Below are positions 21,079-49,928 of a stretch of DNA of 64,000 nt, one piece after another. A program made the position numbers and the translations under genes. The stretch's first letter is position 1, and the number at the start of each line of letters is the position of its first letter. The stretch spans positions 2,728,001-2,792,000 of the forward strand of contig NZ_RKHG01000001.1 of NCBI RefSeq assembly GCF_003752415.1. The letters run 5' to 3'. The notes under the pieces were generated by a model, which was not told where the DNA came from, made no database searches, and was given only the letters and a program-made list of their open reading frames with translations. This DNA comes from Luteococcus japonicus (GTDB lineage: Bacteria > Actinomycetota > Actinomycetes > Propionibacteriales > Propionibacteriaceae).

Positions 21079-21334
21079 TGCCACACTTCCTTTCCACGGG
21101 CAGGTACGTGCCCGACGATCCGTAGTGGAATCGTGGACCAACTCTGTCCACCCGGAAAGACTCGCACATCGGTGGTGCACAGTGAAGGGCGCCCCCCGGT
21201 GTTTGCCATCGTCATCCGCTGTGGCTAGGGACGATGCTTCGCATTGTTACGAAATCGTGAACTATTCGGCCCCGGATGGCCGGATGGCATGCTTGGAGCG
21301 GGTGGCATCGGGCCACTCGCCGGGAGGAGAAGAG

Positions 21335-45373: not shown

Positions 45374-47020
45374 TCAGCCCAGATCGTCGAGGTCCTCGGC
45401 GTCGACAATCCGGTAGGCGTAACCCTGTTCTGCCAGGAAGCGCTGGCGGTGCTGGGCGAAGTCCGCGTCGGGTGTGTCTCGCGCGACGACGGCATAGAAG
45501 CGGGCCGTCACGCCGTCCTTCGGGCGCAGCAGGCGGCCCAGGCGCTGTGCCTCCTCCTGCCGGGAACCGAAGGCGCCGGAGACCTGGATCGCCACCTGTG
45601 CGGTCGGCAGGTCGATGGAGAAGTTGGCCACCTTGCTCACGACGATCAGGTCGACCTCCCCGGACCGGAATCGGTCGCAGATCTCGCCGCGCCGCTTGTT
45701 CGTCGTGGAACCCGTGATCAGCTCCGCGTCCAGTTCCCGGGCAATCTCCTCCAGCTGGTCCACGTACTGCCCGATCACCAGCGTCGGCTGGCCCCGGTGT
45801 CGCGAGACGAGGTCCAGCACGGTCCGGGTCTTGCTCTCGCTGGTGGCGGCCAGCCGGTAGCGCACGTCGGGTTCCGCGGTGGCGACGGCCATGCGCTCGG
45901 AATCGTCCAGCGTGACCCGCACCTCCACGCAGTCGGCGGGCGCGATCCAGCCCTGCGCCTCGATGTCCTTCCATGGTGCGTCGTAACGCTTGGGCCCGAT
46001 CAGGCTGAAGACGTCTCCCTCCCTCCCGTCCTCGCGGACGAGGGTGGCGGTCAGCCCGAGCCTGCGTCGGGCCTGCAGGTGGGCCGTCATCCGAAAGACC
46101 GGCGCGGGCAACAGGTGCACCTCGTCGTAGATCACCAGGCCCCAGTCGCGGGCGTCGAAGAGCTCGAGGTGGGGATGCACCCCGCCACGCTTGGTCGTGA
46201 TCACCTGATAGGTGGCGATCGTCACCGGCCGGATCTCCTTGCGGCTGCCGGAGTACTCGCCGATTTCGTCGGGGGTCAGCGTGGTGCGGCGCAGCAGCTC
46301 GTCGCGCCACTGCCGCGCACTGACGGTGTTGGTCACCAAGATCAGGGTGGTGGCCTGCGCGAGGGCCATCGCATCGGCTCCGACGATGGTCTTGCCCGCA
46401 CCGCAGGGGAGCACGACCACCCCGGAGCCGCCGTTCCAGAAGCTCTCGGCCGCCTGCCGCTGGTAGGGGCGCAGTTCCCACCCGTCCTCGACGAGGTCGA
46501 TGGCGTGCTTCTCTCCGTCGACGTAGCCGGCCAGGTCCTCGGCCGGCCAGCCCAGCTTGAGCAGCACCTGCTTCAGGTTCCCGCGCTCCGACGGGTGCAC
46601 GATGACGCTCTCGTCGTCGATCCGGGCCCCGACCAGGCCCTTGACCTTAGCCGAGCGCAGCACCTCCACCAGCACAGCATTGTCCGTGCTGATCATCACC
46701 AGGCCGTGGGTGGGGTGCTTCTCCAGTCGCAGCCGCCCGTAGCGGCCCATCGTCTCCGTGATGTCCACCAGAAGGGAGCTCGCGACGGGGTAGCGGGAGA
46801 AACGCATCAGGACGTCGACGACCTGCTCCGCGTCGTGTCCGGCGGCGCGCGCATTCCACAGGCCAAGGGGCGTGAGCCGATAGGTGTGCACATGCTCCGG
46901 GGCGCGCTCCAGCTCCGCGAAGGGGGCGATCTCGACGCGGCACGCATCCGCGTCGGGGTGGTCCACCTCCAGCAGCAGGGTGCGGTCGGACTGGACGATC
47001 AGGGGGCCGGGGTTGTTCAT
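45374..47020 (-). CDS. XPB/Rad25-type DNA repair helicase
   Basis: A 548-aa superfamily 2 3'-5' helicase, the bacterial relative of the TFIIH XPB subunit. An N-terminal helicase-associated domain (1-180) precedes Walker [19 protein letters not shown]-box [14 protein letters not shown]-like [10 protein letters not shown] and C-terminal [15 protein letters not shown] (motif VI). Its in vivo role in bacteria is not settled. The ATG at 47020 gives the usual family length; the longer frame upstream overlaps the cobalamin riboswitch region. Confidence 0.92.
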
Positions 47021-47064
47021 CGCCTGCCAGTATCCCCCACTTCCCAAACCGGGGAAGACCCTGC

Positions 47065-47232
47065 CGGCCGGTACTCCCATGATGTTGGAAAACCCCTTGT
47101 GGGGGCGGGGAATCTGGTGAGAATCCAGGACTGACGCGCAGCGGTGAGGATGACGCAAAGGCACTGTGCCACTGGCGAGAGCGGGGAAGGCGCCCGAGCG
47201 GAGGAGTCCGAGTCCGAAAACCTGCCAACGCG
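47065..47232 (+). ncRNA. Cobalamin riboswitch (no evident target gene)
   Basis: The core GGGAATCTGGTGAGAATCC (47108-47126), followed by GACTGACGCGCAGCGGTGAGG, matches the conserved L5/J region of cobalamin riboswitches. AGTCCGAAAACCTGCC (47211-47226) is the B12 box. The GGT at 47070-47072 is the conserved 5' element. Boundaries are approximate. Downstream there is only a 23-codon ORF, a terminator and then a new promoter before rplY. Confidence 0.85.
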
Positions 47233-47354
47233 AGGTACGGCAAGGACCCGAAGGAGCTGTTGGGCAAGGATGGATGGTTCACGACGGTGGTGGCCCCCGC
47301 CACCCAGCACGGCGCAGTTGATCACCGAGGTTTCGGAGTAGGTCACGGCACAGG
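47233..47354 (+). other. Gene-free stretch between riboswitch and terminator
   Basis: No confident gene. An AAGGAG sequence precedes a 23-codon ORF (ATG 47270, stop 47339-47341; begins MDGSRRWWPPPP), which is probably chance. Confidence 0.3.
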
Positions 47355-47387
47355 CCGGGCCCGCTGCTTTGTGTGCAGTGGGCCCGG
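47355..47387 (+). terminator. Terminator downstream of the riboswitch
   Basis: A 13-bp stem (47355-47367 with 47375-47387, one G-U pair) and TTTGTGT loop. A U-tract is weak, so it could be the switching terminator or a transcript end. Confidence 0.6.
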
Positions 47388-47398
47388 TGCCCTATCCT
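47369..47398 (+). promoter_or_regulatory. Candidate rplY promoter
   Basis: TTGTGT (47369-47374) and TATCCT (47393-47398) are 18 nt apart, giving a leader of about 130 nt before rplY and bypassing the riboswitch. Confidence 0.4.
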
Positions 47399-47534
47399 TG
47401 GCTTGTTGCCTGGCGAGGGAACCGGAGTATTCCGGGGCCGTGATCGACGTGGTGCTGAGCGAGAGCTCGTCTCCTCCCTCGTGGGCGTTTACGTGATCTG
47501 GACGTCCCAGAGACGAAGGTTGAGGAAGACCGCA

Positions 47535-48164
47535 ATGGCCACCAATGAGCTGAAGATTTTCGCCGAGAAGCGCACCGAGTTCGGCAAGGGCGCTGCCCGT
47601 CGCATCCGTCGCGCTGACAAGGTGCCCGCCGTGCTGTACGGCCACGGCATGGAGCCCGAGCATCTGACGCTGCCCGGCCACGACATCCTGCTGGCCCTGC
47701 GCACCGCCAACGTGCTGCTGAGCCTGGACATCGCTGGCGAGAAGGAGCAGCTGTGCCTGCCCAAGCAGGTCCAGCGCGACCCGATCAAGGGCTTCATCGA
47801 GCACGTCGACCTGCTGCTGGTCAAGCGCGGCGAGAAGATCACCGTCGAGGTGCCCATCGTCCTGACCGGCGAGGCCGCCTCCGAGACCACCGTCAACCAG
47901 GACCTCACCGCACTGGCCCTCGAGGTTTCCGCCATGAACATCCCCACCGAGATCGAGGTCTCCATCGAGGGCCTGGAGGCCGGTGCGCAGATCAGCGTGG
48001 CCGACATCACCCTGCCCGAGGGCGCCACCTTCCACGGTGAGGCCGCCGAGACCCTGATCGTCGGCATCAATGCCGCCGAAGAGCTCGACGAGGGCGCCAC
48101 CGAGGGCGACGAGACCGCGGGTGCCGAGGTTGCCGCCGCTGAGGGCGAGTCCGAGGGCGAGTGA
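47535..48164 (+). CDS. rplY: 50S ribosomal protein L25 / general stress protein Ctc
   Basis: A 209-aa two-domain L25 (TL5/Ctc) that binds 5S rRNA. The N-terminal RNA-binding domain begins RTEFGKGAARRIRRADKVPAVLYG, the C-terminal beta domain follows at about 95-185, and the tail is acidic (Glu/Ala-rich). GAGGAAGA precedes the ATG. The stop overlaps the pth start (GTGA), and rplY-pth is a conserved pair. Confidence 0.95.
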   Translation: MATNELKIFAEKRTEFGKGAARRIRRADKVPAVLYGHGMEPEHLTLPGHDILLALRTANVLLSLDIAGEKEQLCLPKQVQRDPIKGFIEHVDLLLVKRGEKITVEVPIVLTGEAASETTVNQDLTALALEVSAMNIPTEIEVSIEGLEAGAQISVADITLPEGATFHGEAAETLIVGINAAEELDEGATEGDETAGAEVAAAEGESEGE

Positions 48165-48760
48165 CCAGCTGGCTCGTGGTGGGGCTGGGAAATCCCGGCC
48201 CCACCTACTCCAACACCCGGCACAATGTCGGGTTCATGGTCGTCGACGAACTGGCCCGCCGTGCGCGGGCCAGTTGGTCGGCTCCTCGGCTGATGCGCGC
48301 CGAGGTCGTCGAGACACGGATCAGCTCCGCCGGGGTGGGCGCTCCGGGGCTGGATGCCCACAAGGTCGTGCTGGTCAAGCCGCGCACCTTCATGAACGAG
48401 TCCGGACAGGCCGTCGGCAAGCTCGCGGGATTCCACAAGGTGGCTCCCTCGAATGTCATCGCCATCCACGACGAACTTGATCTTGACTTCGGCCAGCTCC
48501 GGCTCAAGATCGGTGGTGGCGACAACGGTCACAACGGGCTGAAGAGCCTGCGCAAGCACCTGTCCACCGGGGACTTCCACCGGGTGCGTTTCGGCATCGG
48601 GCGTCCCCCGGGACGGCAGGCGGCCGCCGACTATGTGCTGGCCCCCATCCCCTCCAGCCTCAAGCTTGATCTTGAGATCGAGGTCGGCCGGGCCGCTGAT
48701 GCCGTGGAGAAGCTGGTCCTGGACGGCCTCGAGGCCGCTCAGAACCGTTACAACTCCTGA
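48161..48760 (+). CDS. pth: Peptidyl-tRNA hydrolase
   Basis: A 199-aa enzyme that recycles tRNA by cleaving peptidyl-tRNA. VVGLGNPGPTYSNTRHNVGF contains the catalytic His and conserved Asn; KPRTFMNESGQAV and HDELDLDFGQLRLK carry Asp. GGGDNGHNGLKS is the substrate loop. GTG start overlaps the rplY stop. Confidence 0.95.
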   Translation: MTSWLVVGLGNPGPTYSNTRHNVGFMVVDELARRARASWSAPRLMRAEVVETRISSAGVGAPGLDAHKVVLVKPRTFMNESGQAVGKLAGFHKVAPSNVIAIHDELDLDFGQLRLKIGGGDNGHNGLKSLRKHLSTGDFHRVRFGIGRPPGRQAAADYVLAPIPSSLKLDLEIEVGRAADAVEKLVLDGLEAAQNRYNS

Positions 48761-48774
48761 GCCCGGACCGTCGG

Positions 48775-49432
48775 TCAGGCGGCGACGAGGCGGGCAATGA
48801 CCCGCGGCGGGGGAGTGCGCAGACTGCCCAGCGTGGGCAGCACGGTGCAGGCCGTCGTCGCGACCCAGATCACCACGCCCACCCAGACCATGGTCTGCGC
48901 AGGGGCCGCTCCCAGGCTCTCGTCGAGTGCCAGTTCCGCGACCGCTGCCGGGCCATCATCAGCAGGGCGGACAGACCACCCGCCACCGAGATCGCCAGAG
49001 GGGCACCGAGCAGGAGCAGCAGGCCGGGCAGGTCATTGCCGGCGAGCTCCCGCCCTCCTCCATGGCCTCCAGCGTCGCCTGGAAGGACTGGCCCAGACAC
49101 ATCATCGAGAACAGCAGAGACATCGTGACCATCACGGGGGCCACCGTGCGTTCGAGACGGTCCATCTTGCCCAGCACCGTGTTGCGCGCCAGGTGCCATG
49201 TTCCGCTGCGGCCGGGCACCAGCTTGGTCCAGCCGCGCGTCAGTAGCCCCGTCGTGACCGGAGAGTCCTTGGCCATGAAGGTTGCCAACAGGGGATCAGG
49301 AAGAAGGTGGCCTGCATGACGCTCTGCAGGGCGAACTTCTCAGCGTCCATCGTGCGCACCGTGGGGGGTGGCCCAGAAGATCAGTCCCACCAGGGCAGCG
49401 ATGACCAGGCACCAGATGACGCGTCCCACCAT
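48775..49432 (-). pseudogene. Decayed ABC transporter permease (FtsX/MacB-like)
   Basis: Pieces of one permease lie in successive frames: MVGRVIWCLVIAALVGLIFW at 49432, then MATFMAKDSPVTTGLLTRGW, then LERTVAPVMVTMSLLFSMM, then LAGNDLPGLLLLLGAPLAIS, then a C-terminal VWVGVVIWVATTACTVLP ending at the TGA of 48775-48777. At least four frame changes are needed (near 49375, 49289, 49050, 48945). The order and hydrophobicity fit an FtsX-type permease, so this is a pseudogene. Confidence 0.75.
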
Positions 49433-49459
49433 TCCCTTGCGCCTGCCCCTCTCTGCGGT

Positions 49460-49790
49460 GGACTGGCGCCGGCCAGACGCATGAACGCGACGCGGTCGCA
49501 CCGGCGGGCCACCACCGGGTCGTGGGTGACCATCAGCACGCAATGGCCCGGGTCGCGGGCGACGCGCTGCTGTTCACCACCGGACAGGGTGATGGGCAGC
49601 TTGCTGGCTAGATCAGCGATGCCCATGGACTCCATCCGGTCCATGATCAGCTCTCGGTCCGGGCGCTTTCGGTCCAGCCGCCACGGCAGGGCGATGGTCT
49701 CGTAGGCGGACAGGGTGGCACCAGGTTGTACTGCTGGAAGACGAAGCCACTGACAAGCGGCGGTGCGATGTTGGGCGTGACGGCCATGGT
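49460..49790 (-). pseudogene. Decayed ABC transporter ATPase (LolD/MacB-like)
   Basis: A remnant with FVFQQYNLVP (Q-loop), ATLSAYETIALPWRLDRKRP, the signature LSGGEQQRVA and the switch VLMVTHDPVVARRCDRVAFM. Walker A is missing and the stretch between signature and switch, including Walker B, is deleted. A frame change separates QYNLVP from TLSAYE. Paired with the decayed permease just downstream. Confidence 0.78.
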
Positions 49791-49822
49791 CTTCTCCTCG
49801 TGCAGGGGTTGACCACGGCGCT

Positions 49823-49857
49823 ACGCAGGCGGCTGGCGGGTCACATCCCGCCTGCGT
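49823..49857 (-). terminator. Hairpin downstream of zwf
   Basis: A 10-bp stem (49823-49832 with 49848-49857) about 70 nt past the zwf stop on the minus strand. Inner GGCGGG/CCCGCC can pair alternatively. Confidence 0.5.
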
Positions 49858-49928
49858 CACCCATTGCGTCGGCCCTACCCGTGACCGCAGTCATGGGTGG
49901 GGCCGGAGGGGGAGCTGAGCGGGCAGGC

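Follow-up and report, generated by a model that had tools for sequence, protein, structure and literature searches.

The cobalamin riboswitch that lies between an XPB-type helicase gene and rplY in Luteococcus japonicus is best read as an orphan. With a probability of roughly 0.7, we take it to be an aptamer that has lost its target gene and its switching hairpin P13, sits on a scar joining XPB to rplY, is little transcribed and controls nothing. The lost target was probably an importer operon. The host genome (G000) measures 3.45 Mb in one contig, and the window, that is, the whole stretch of DNA analysed, covers 64,000 nucleotides of it (NZ_RKHG01000001.1, positions 2,728,001 to 2,792,000). 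In coordinates of the window, the features are as follows.

45374–47020, minus strand: XPB-type helicase gene, the divergent neighbour; its promoter region is sister-like up to about 47035 (by eye)
47069–47243, plus strand: cobalamin riboswitch aptamer RF00174, core intact (cmscan)
47072–47077, plus strand: TACTCC at the position of the –10 box, six bases 5′ of P1; the final T of TAnnnT is missing
47084–47088, plus strand: 5′ strand of P1, GTTGG, pairing with 47225–47229 (sequence and covariance-model alignment)
47130–47145, plus strand: subtype core ACTGACGCGCAGCGGT, with loop L5 = ACGCG (exact-match search)
47168–47175, plus strand: B12-box core GCCACTGG (covariance-model alignment)
47225–47232, plus strand: 3′ strand of P1, CCAAC, overlapping CGCG at 47229–47232; no P13 hairpin around the CGCG
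47270–47341, plus strand: short ORF, 23 sense codons and a stop (sequence)
47354–47388, plus strand: 14-bp GC-rich hairpin without a T-run, overlapping the rplY promoter (fold)
47393–47398, plus strand: –10 box of rplY, TATCCT, with the spacing to the leader that TATTGT has in the sister locus L046 (by eye)
47412–47448, plus strand: conserved rplY leader motif, GGCGAGGG-hairpin-CCGTGATCGAC
47535–48164, plus strand: rplY, ribosomal protein L25
48161–48760, plus strand: ORF (from the ORF list) which we take to be pth, peptidyl-tRNA hydrolase

That the element is a real cobalamin riboswitch aptamer, as a preliminary description had proposed from its conserved core and B12 box, is confirmed: cmscan matches RF00174 over the full length of the model (1–189) and sets the boundaries at 47069–47243(+), and the score of 72.9 bits (gathering score 31.5; E-value 4.8e–16) excludes chance. 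Membership of the family rests on this score and on the alignment of both B12 box and core, and the aptamer is probably still able to bind its ligand. Ten RF00174 matches in the host genome, the focal copy included, exceed the cut-off, and behind seven of the nine others stands a B12-related protein supported by Pfam: a ChlI/ChlD-type chelatase protein, methylmalonyl-CoA mutase, CbiQ, CobN, two tetrapyrrole methylases and a CobB-type protein with an aminotransferase domain. An eighth copy is followed by an NrdH-like start (named by eye) that runs into a stop, and a ninth by a CobD-like ORF (also by eye) that starts about 0.7 kb behind. The focal riboswitch is the clearest exception among the ten to the rule that a B12 gene follows; in a blastn search within the genome, the focal stretch matches itself alone. 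At the highest-scoring cobalamin riboswitch of this genome (L185, near 4656) the NrdH-like frame stops after 20 codons, which reflects either a natural frameshift or an assembly artefact.

The preliminary description was also right that no cobalt or cobalamin gene follows: rplY comes next, then pth, neither of them a gene of cobamide transport, synthesis or use. Importer, SBP_bac_5 and cobG queries gave no match within 7 kb of the focal aptamer. A gene misread here through sequence error would find little room, as the aptamer ends 292 bases before the start of rplY and much of this distance belongs to the rplY leader. The 23-codon ORF mentioned earlier does exist, and it is probably not a gene; it has no Pfam match (tested from 47273, 22 aa), and three short stretches of DNA similarity that cover or adjoin it, in G005, G045 and G049, were judged by eye to be chance. 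A remnant of a lost gene was sought in 47244–47385, with no Pfam match for this ORF, for the 65-aa frame enclosing it or for a 78-aa ORF starting with TTG. The terminator of the preliminary description stands in part: there is a strong 14-bp hairpin, but it has no T-run and a consensus scan of 46700–48200 returned no intrinsic terminator. The fold of 47244–47404 is mildly more stable than that of shuffled sequences (z = –1.59), and when 47060–47404 is folded the hairpin forms a closed 14-bp stem without strands of the aptamer, about six expected pairs joining 47345–47390 to the rest. Elsewhere in the host genome there are two importer loci (PF01032 and PF01497, FecCD and Peripla_BP_2), one of them adjoining a siderophore-interacting protein. 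Neither is at a riboswitch, the nearest riboswitches being tens of kilobases away, and their permeases share 29–41% identity with the riboswitch-linked proteins of relatives, while the best solute-binding match reaches 25% (E = 0.001); a close counterpart of the riboswitch-linked importers was not found in this genome. Two further observations concern the window itself. Frames at 48790–49860(–) look by eye like those of an ABC transporter split over several frames, two fragments having no Pfam match, and represent either a decayed gene or indel errors; an msiK RNA (RF01747, 56.6 bits) lies at 21083–21139(–).

The exact 16-base core ACTGACGCGCAGCGGT defines the subtype to which the focal copy belongs. 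An exact search, which misses variants, finds it 48 times, in 33 of 198 genomes of the family, and not at all in G001, the sole other member of the genus compared. We compared the focal copy with the 47 others (L229–L275), many of which, being from related genomes, are not independent of one another. According to tblastn, counting same-strand genes that start within 1.8 kb behind the riboswitch, 32 of these copies precede importers (Peripla_BP_2, FecCD or ATPase), six precede SBP_bac_5 operons and four cobG, leaving five with none of these (L230, L232, L233, L234 and L244); the labels "importer", for the BtuF/FecCD type, and "cobG" are our interpretation of Pfam domains. Spot checks with Pfam returned FecCD at L266, and on the opposite strand at L233, Peripla_BP_2 at L270 and L260, SBP_bac_5 at L240 and, for cobG, a NIR/SIR half domain at L254. 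In the group of five, Pfam finds a ribbon-helix-helix protein behind L230, lactate dehydrogenase behind L232 (G100) and a GNAT protein behind L234 (G004), while L244 (G182) is followed by a short broken frame. L230 and L233 (G027, G100) precede related ribbon-helix-helix proteins of 76–78 aa with 58% identity over 76 residues, so these two copies probably have a target of their own, unusual for a cobalamin riboswitch. At L233 an importer sits further downstream in opposite orientation. In pairwise alignments the focal aptamer is 63–76% identical to the 47 copies, and the top eight by alignment score include four of the five copies without a listed target (L233, L244, L234, L230) together with the importer copies L266, L249 and L265 and the cobG copy L235, although the scores differ little. 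L013 is another good DNA match of the focal aptamer.

With the same core and a similar layout of P1 and B12 box, the focal copy nevertheless lacks two elements that its relatives carry. Corrinoid riboswitches rely, according to the available text of PMC10653944, on a kissing loop between L5 and L13, and a hairpin with CGCG in its loop would fit L13 as the expected partner of L5. Such a P13-type hairpin (at least four pairs, CGCG at the first or second loop position, 12–60 bases after the aptamer) is present in 44 of the 47 relatives, compared with 6.4% of random windows from the same loci (n = 8275) and 6.4% of mononucleotide shuffles, by a rule which, like that for the –10 box, was drawn up after the sequences had been seen. 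The three relatives without it are L234, which has none of the listed targets, L269 (importer) and L271 (cobG). By the same rule the focal copy has no P13. Its single CGCG in the next 300 bases, at offset 8, begins on the last base of the P1 3′ strand and gives at most a 4-bp stem with a 12-base loop, so the expression platform with an L13 able to kiss L5, as expected of a working gene-control unit, is absent. The second element is TAnnnT starting 35–70 bases 5′ of the core, found in 45 of the 47 relatives and in 4.0% of random 41-base windows; the exceptions, L231 and L269, both have importers behind them. The focal copy has no TAnnnT in that stretch and shows TACTCC just before P1 instead, other promoters being possible. 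L232, L234 and L244 resemble it in having no importer, SBP_bac_5 or cobG on the same strand, and L234 also in having no P13, whereas L232 and L244 have kept theirs.

The position of the aptamer points to a rearrangement. XPB and rplY are about 0.5 kb apart here. Among 57 genomes searched with both proteins, G000 included, ten others of the family (G004, G005, G006, G014, G019, G020, G022, G027, G028 and G029, with G027 counted across contig ends) have the two genes on one contig, and by coordinates they are divergent and 36–144 kb apart in all ten; in G037, a member of another family outside this count, they face each other at 12 kb. Each gene has a usual upstream neighbour on the same strand. 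For XPB this is the helicase-like helC3, in 17 of 29 genomes (20 of 33 loci with repeats), at a spacing within 700 bases in 14 of the 20 loci and of 873–1060 in the other six; the XPB flanks of the remaining genomes showed no helC3. For rplY it is prs, within 2.5 kb at 61 of 79 loci. In the host genome helC3 and prs stand tail to tail, with 171 bases between them, at 1.440 Mb (G000:C1:1440026–1440196, L303), so that the two junctions, XPB to rplY and helC3 to prs, match the expected outcome of a single exchange involving the XPB–helC3 gap and the prs–rplY gap. Similarity to the sister, traced by eye, ends near 47035 on the XPB side and resumes near 47393 on the rplY side, which places the riboswitch within the scar. 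In the sister, a MAG of 79% completeness whose XPB contig breaks off some 160 bases ahead of XPB, both XPB and rplY adjoin other genes than here. The genus comparison comprises these two members and contains no orthologue of the exact focal locus by which the loss could be dated.

We infer that the whole XPB–rplY segment moved, its two ends having been traced. A simple inversion was considered, and the gene order of the ten relatives, divergent with 36–144 kb between, fits excision and relocation better; several inversions are a further alternative. At the helC3–prs junction a long inverted repeat is seen by eye, its arms separated by about 68 bases. A search that allowed up to two mismatches located the first arm a single time in the genome, which speaks against a copy of the riboswitch serving as a repeat at that junction. 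Nor does the riboswitch appear to be ancestral on either side, since none was found before XPB at the 20 of 29 loci scanned with flanks of about 1.5 kb, or before rplY at the 8 of 79 scanned, the sister included. Antisense action on XPB was rejected as well, because the aptamer lies outside this gene and is transcribed away from it.

On the other side of the scar rplY has upstream signals of its own. The separate promoter claimed for it in the preliminary description is backed by TATCCT, placed like TATTGT in the sister, but not by the consensus scan (46700–48200), which found no sigma-70 site. Behind the promoter, the motif GGCGAGGG-N(6–60)-CCGTNATCGRC is present in 68 of 80 sequences, namely 67 of 79 rplY loci and the window, and on both strands of the 79 loci it occurs 68 times in all, compared with 67 loci that have it before rplY. 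The motif spans Propionibacteriales, Jiangellales, Kineococcus, Streptomyces and Actinomycetospora (L046–L124); in an alignment of 35 chosen leaders both flanks are invariant save one position, and 45 of the 59 distinct middles form a stem of at least four pairs, against 30% of shuffles. Taken alone, the leader of the window (47404–47540) folds no better than shuffles (z = –0.49). Rfam gave no match above cut-off at the rplY leader, in the window or at eight rplY loci, and its best weak match in the window was Scr4115 (20.6 bits, cut-off 58). The L25 leader described in the available text of PMC7247131 is enterobacterial; that of the window matches no Rfam leader family, and a literature search showed no actinobacterial L25 leader among the papers listed. 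The conserved leader is offered as a candidate actinobacterial L25 leader RNA, which may serve autoregulation of L25.

The likely working mode of the subtype in relatives can be read from the hairpin, from where it stands ahead of the start codon and from what is published for other riboswitches: the ligand-bound aptamer would form the L5–L13 kissing contact and stabilise P13, and the stabilised P13 would mask the ribosome-binding site and turn the importer off. In the focal copy this chain would break after its first step, the binding of ligand. XPB and rplY would have been brought together while the former flanks of the two gaps, helC3 and prs-glmU, came to meet at 1.44 Mb, and rplY would run from its own promoter. 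The aptamer would have no output, and since its –10 box is off the usual form it is probably little transcribed. Of three options left by the preliminary description, loss of the regulated gene is the best supported, as the subtype mostly precedes importers (32/47), no close importer was found in the genome and the locus is a rearrangement junction; the interpretation given there is partly supported as a whole. Some points weigh against the orphan. That the aptamer core is so well kept calls for a loss in the recent past or for some constraint. Nor does either lesion by itself prove decay, since L269 and L271 without P13, and L231 and L269 without TAnnnT, still precede an importer or cobG. Within the orphan explanation the lost target may have been cobG, an SBP_bac_5 operon or a small ribbon-helix-helix gene, a possibility that we hold as a tentative minority view. 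Ten of the 47 copies precede cobG or SBP_bac_5 operons and two the related ribbon-helix-helix genes, such copies are placed high when all are ranked by similarity to the focal one, and L013 sits before another gene; on the other hand BtuF/FecCD-type importers follow 32 of the 47, and a search near the focal aptamer gave no match to the ribbon-helix-helix protein. The resemblance to copies without a listed target weighs against naming an importer firmly, and L230 and L233 show that the lost target need not be an importer and that a copy without one need not be dead.

The same ranking slightly weakens the case for an orphan and slightly raises that for other targets and for a short RNA, the second option of the preliminary description. 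The riboswitch might still control a stand-alone short RNA or the 23-codon ORF, with the ligand deciding termination at the 47354–47388 hairpin. We regard this as unlikely, even though the aptamer is intact, a strong hairpin lies downstream and other importer-less copies are similar; there are also precedents, in the available text of the respective sources, in translated short ORFs on mycobacterial B12 riboswitches (PMC11260477) and in the antisense-acting pocR B12 riboswitch of Listeria (PMC9943018). Apart from the hairpin, the locus yielded no positive evidence of premature termination: L5 has no P13 partner, on which corrinoid riboswitches are described to rely, the TAnnnT box is missing, the hairpin lacks a T-run and folds as a closed stem apart from the aptamer strands, and the short ORF gives no sign of conservation. 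That the aptamer is kept as a B12-binding short RNA ending at 47354–47388, with an output changed so as to dispense with L5–L13 kissing, seems to us quite improbable. Still less credit goes to the last option, partial control of rplY-pth through read-through from an upstream start. The strand is the same and the distance short, but rplY has its own conserved promoter and leader, the strong hairpin stands between, the riboswitch has no P13, and neither the sister's rplY nor seven other rplY loci scanned have a riboswitch.

Returning to the probable orphan, it is a new case of a known phenomenon in the light of these precedents and of Cutibacterium acnes, for which cobalamin riboswitches that precede pseudogenes or unknown genes have been described (PMC9600381, in its available text). 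The described propionibacterium aptamer is like ours in having no known cobamide gene behind it, and differs in that adhesin fragments and thrombospondin-repeat proteins follow, while the focal copy meets a ribosomal protein gene across a scar. Like other members of RF00174, ours spans the whole aptamer, B12 box included, and scores above the curated threshold; what was not found is an expression platform carrying L13 or a target gene. The case illustrates a way in which riboswitches may be orphaned, with the sensor kept after hairpin, usual promoter box and target have gone. A single Rfam match beside a gene is no evidence of regulation, and for copies of this subtype we suggest the presence of the CGCG loop partner as a test of whether they are live or dead. 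The rplY leader, shared across several actinobacterial orders, may be an undescribed autoregulatory RNA of L25.
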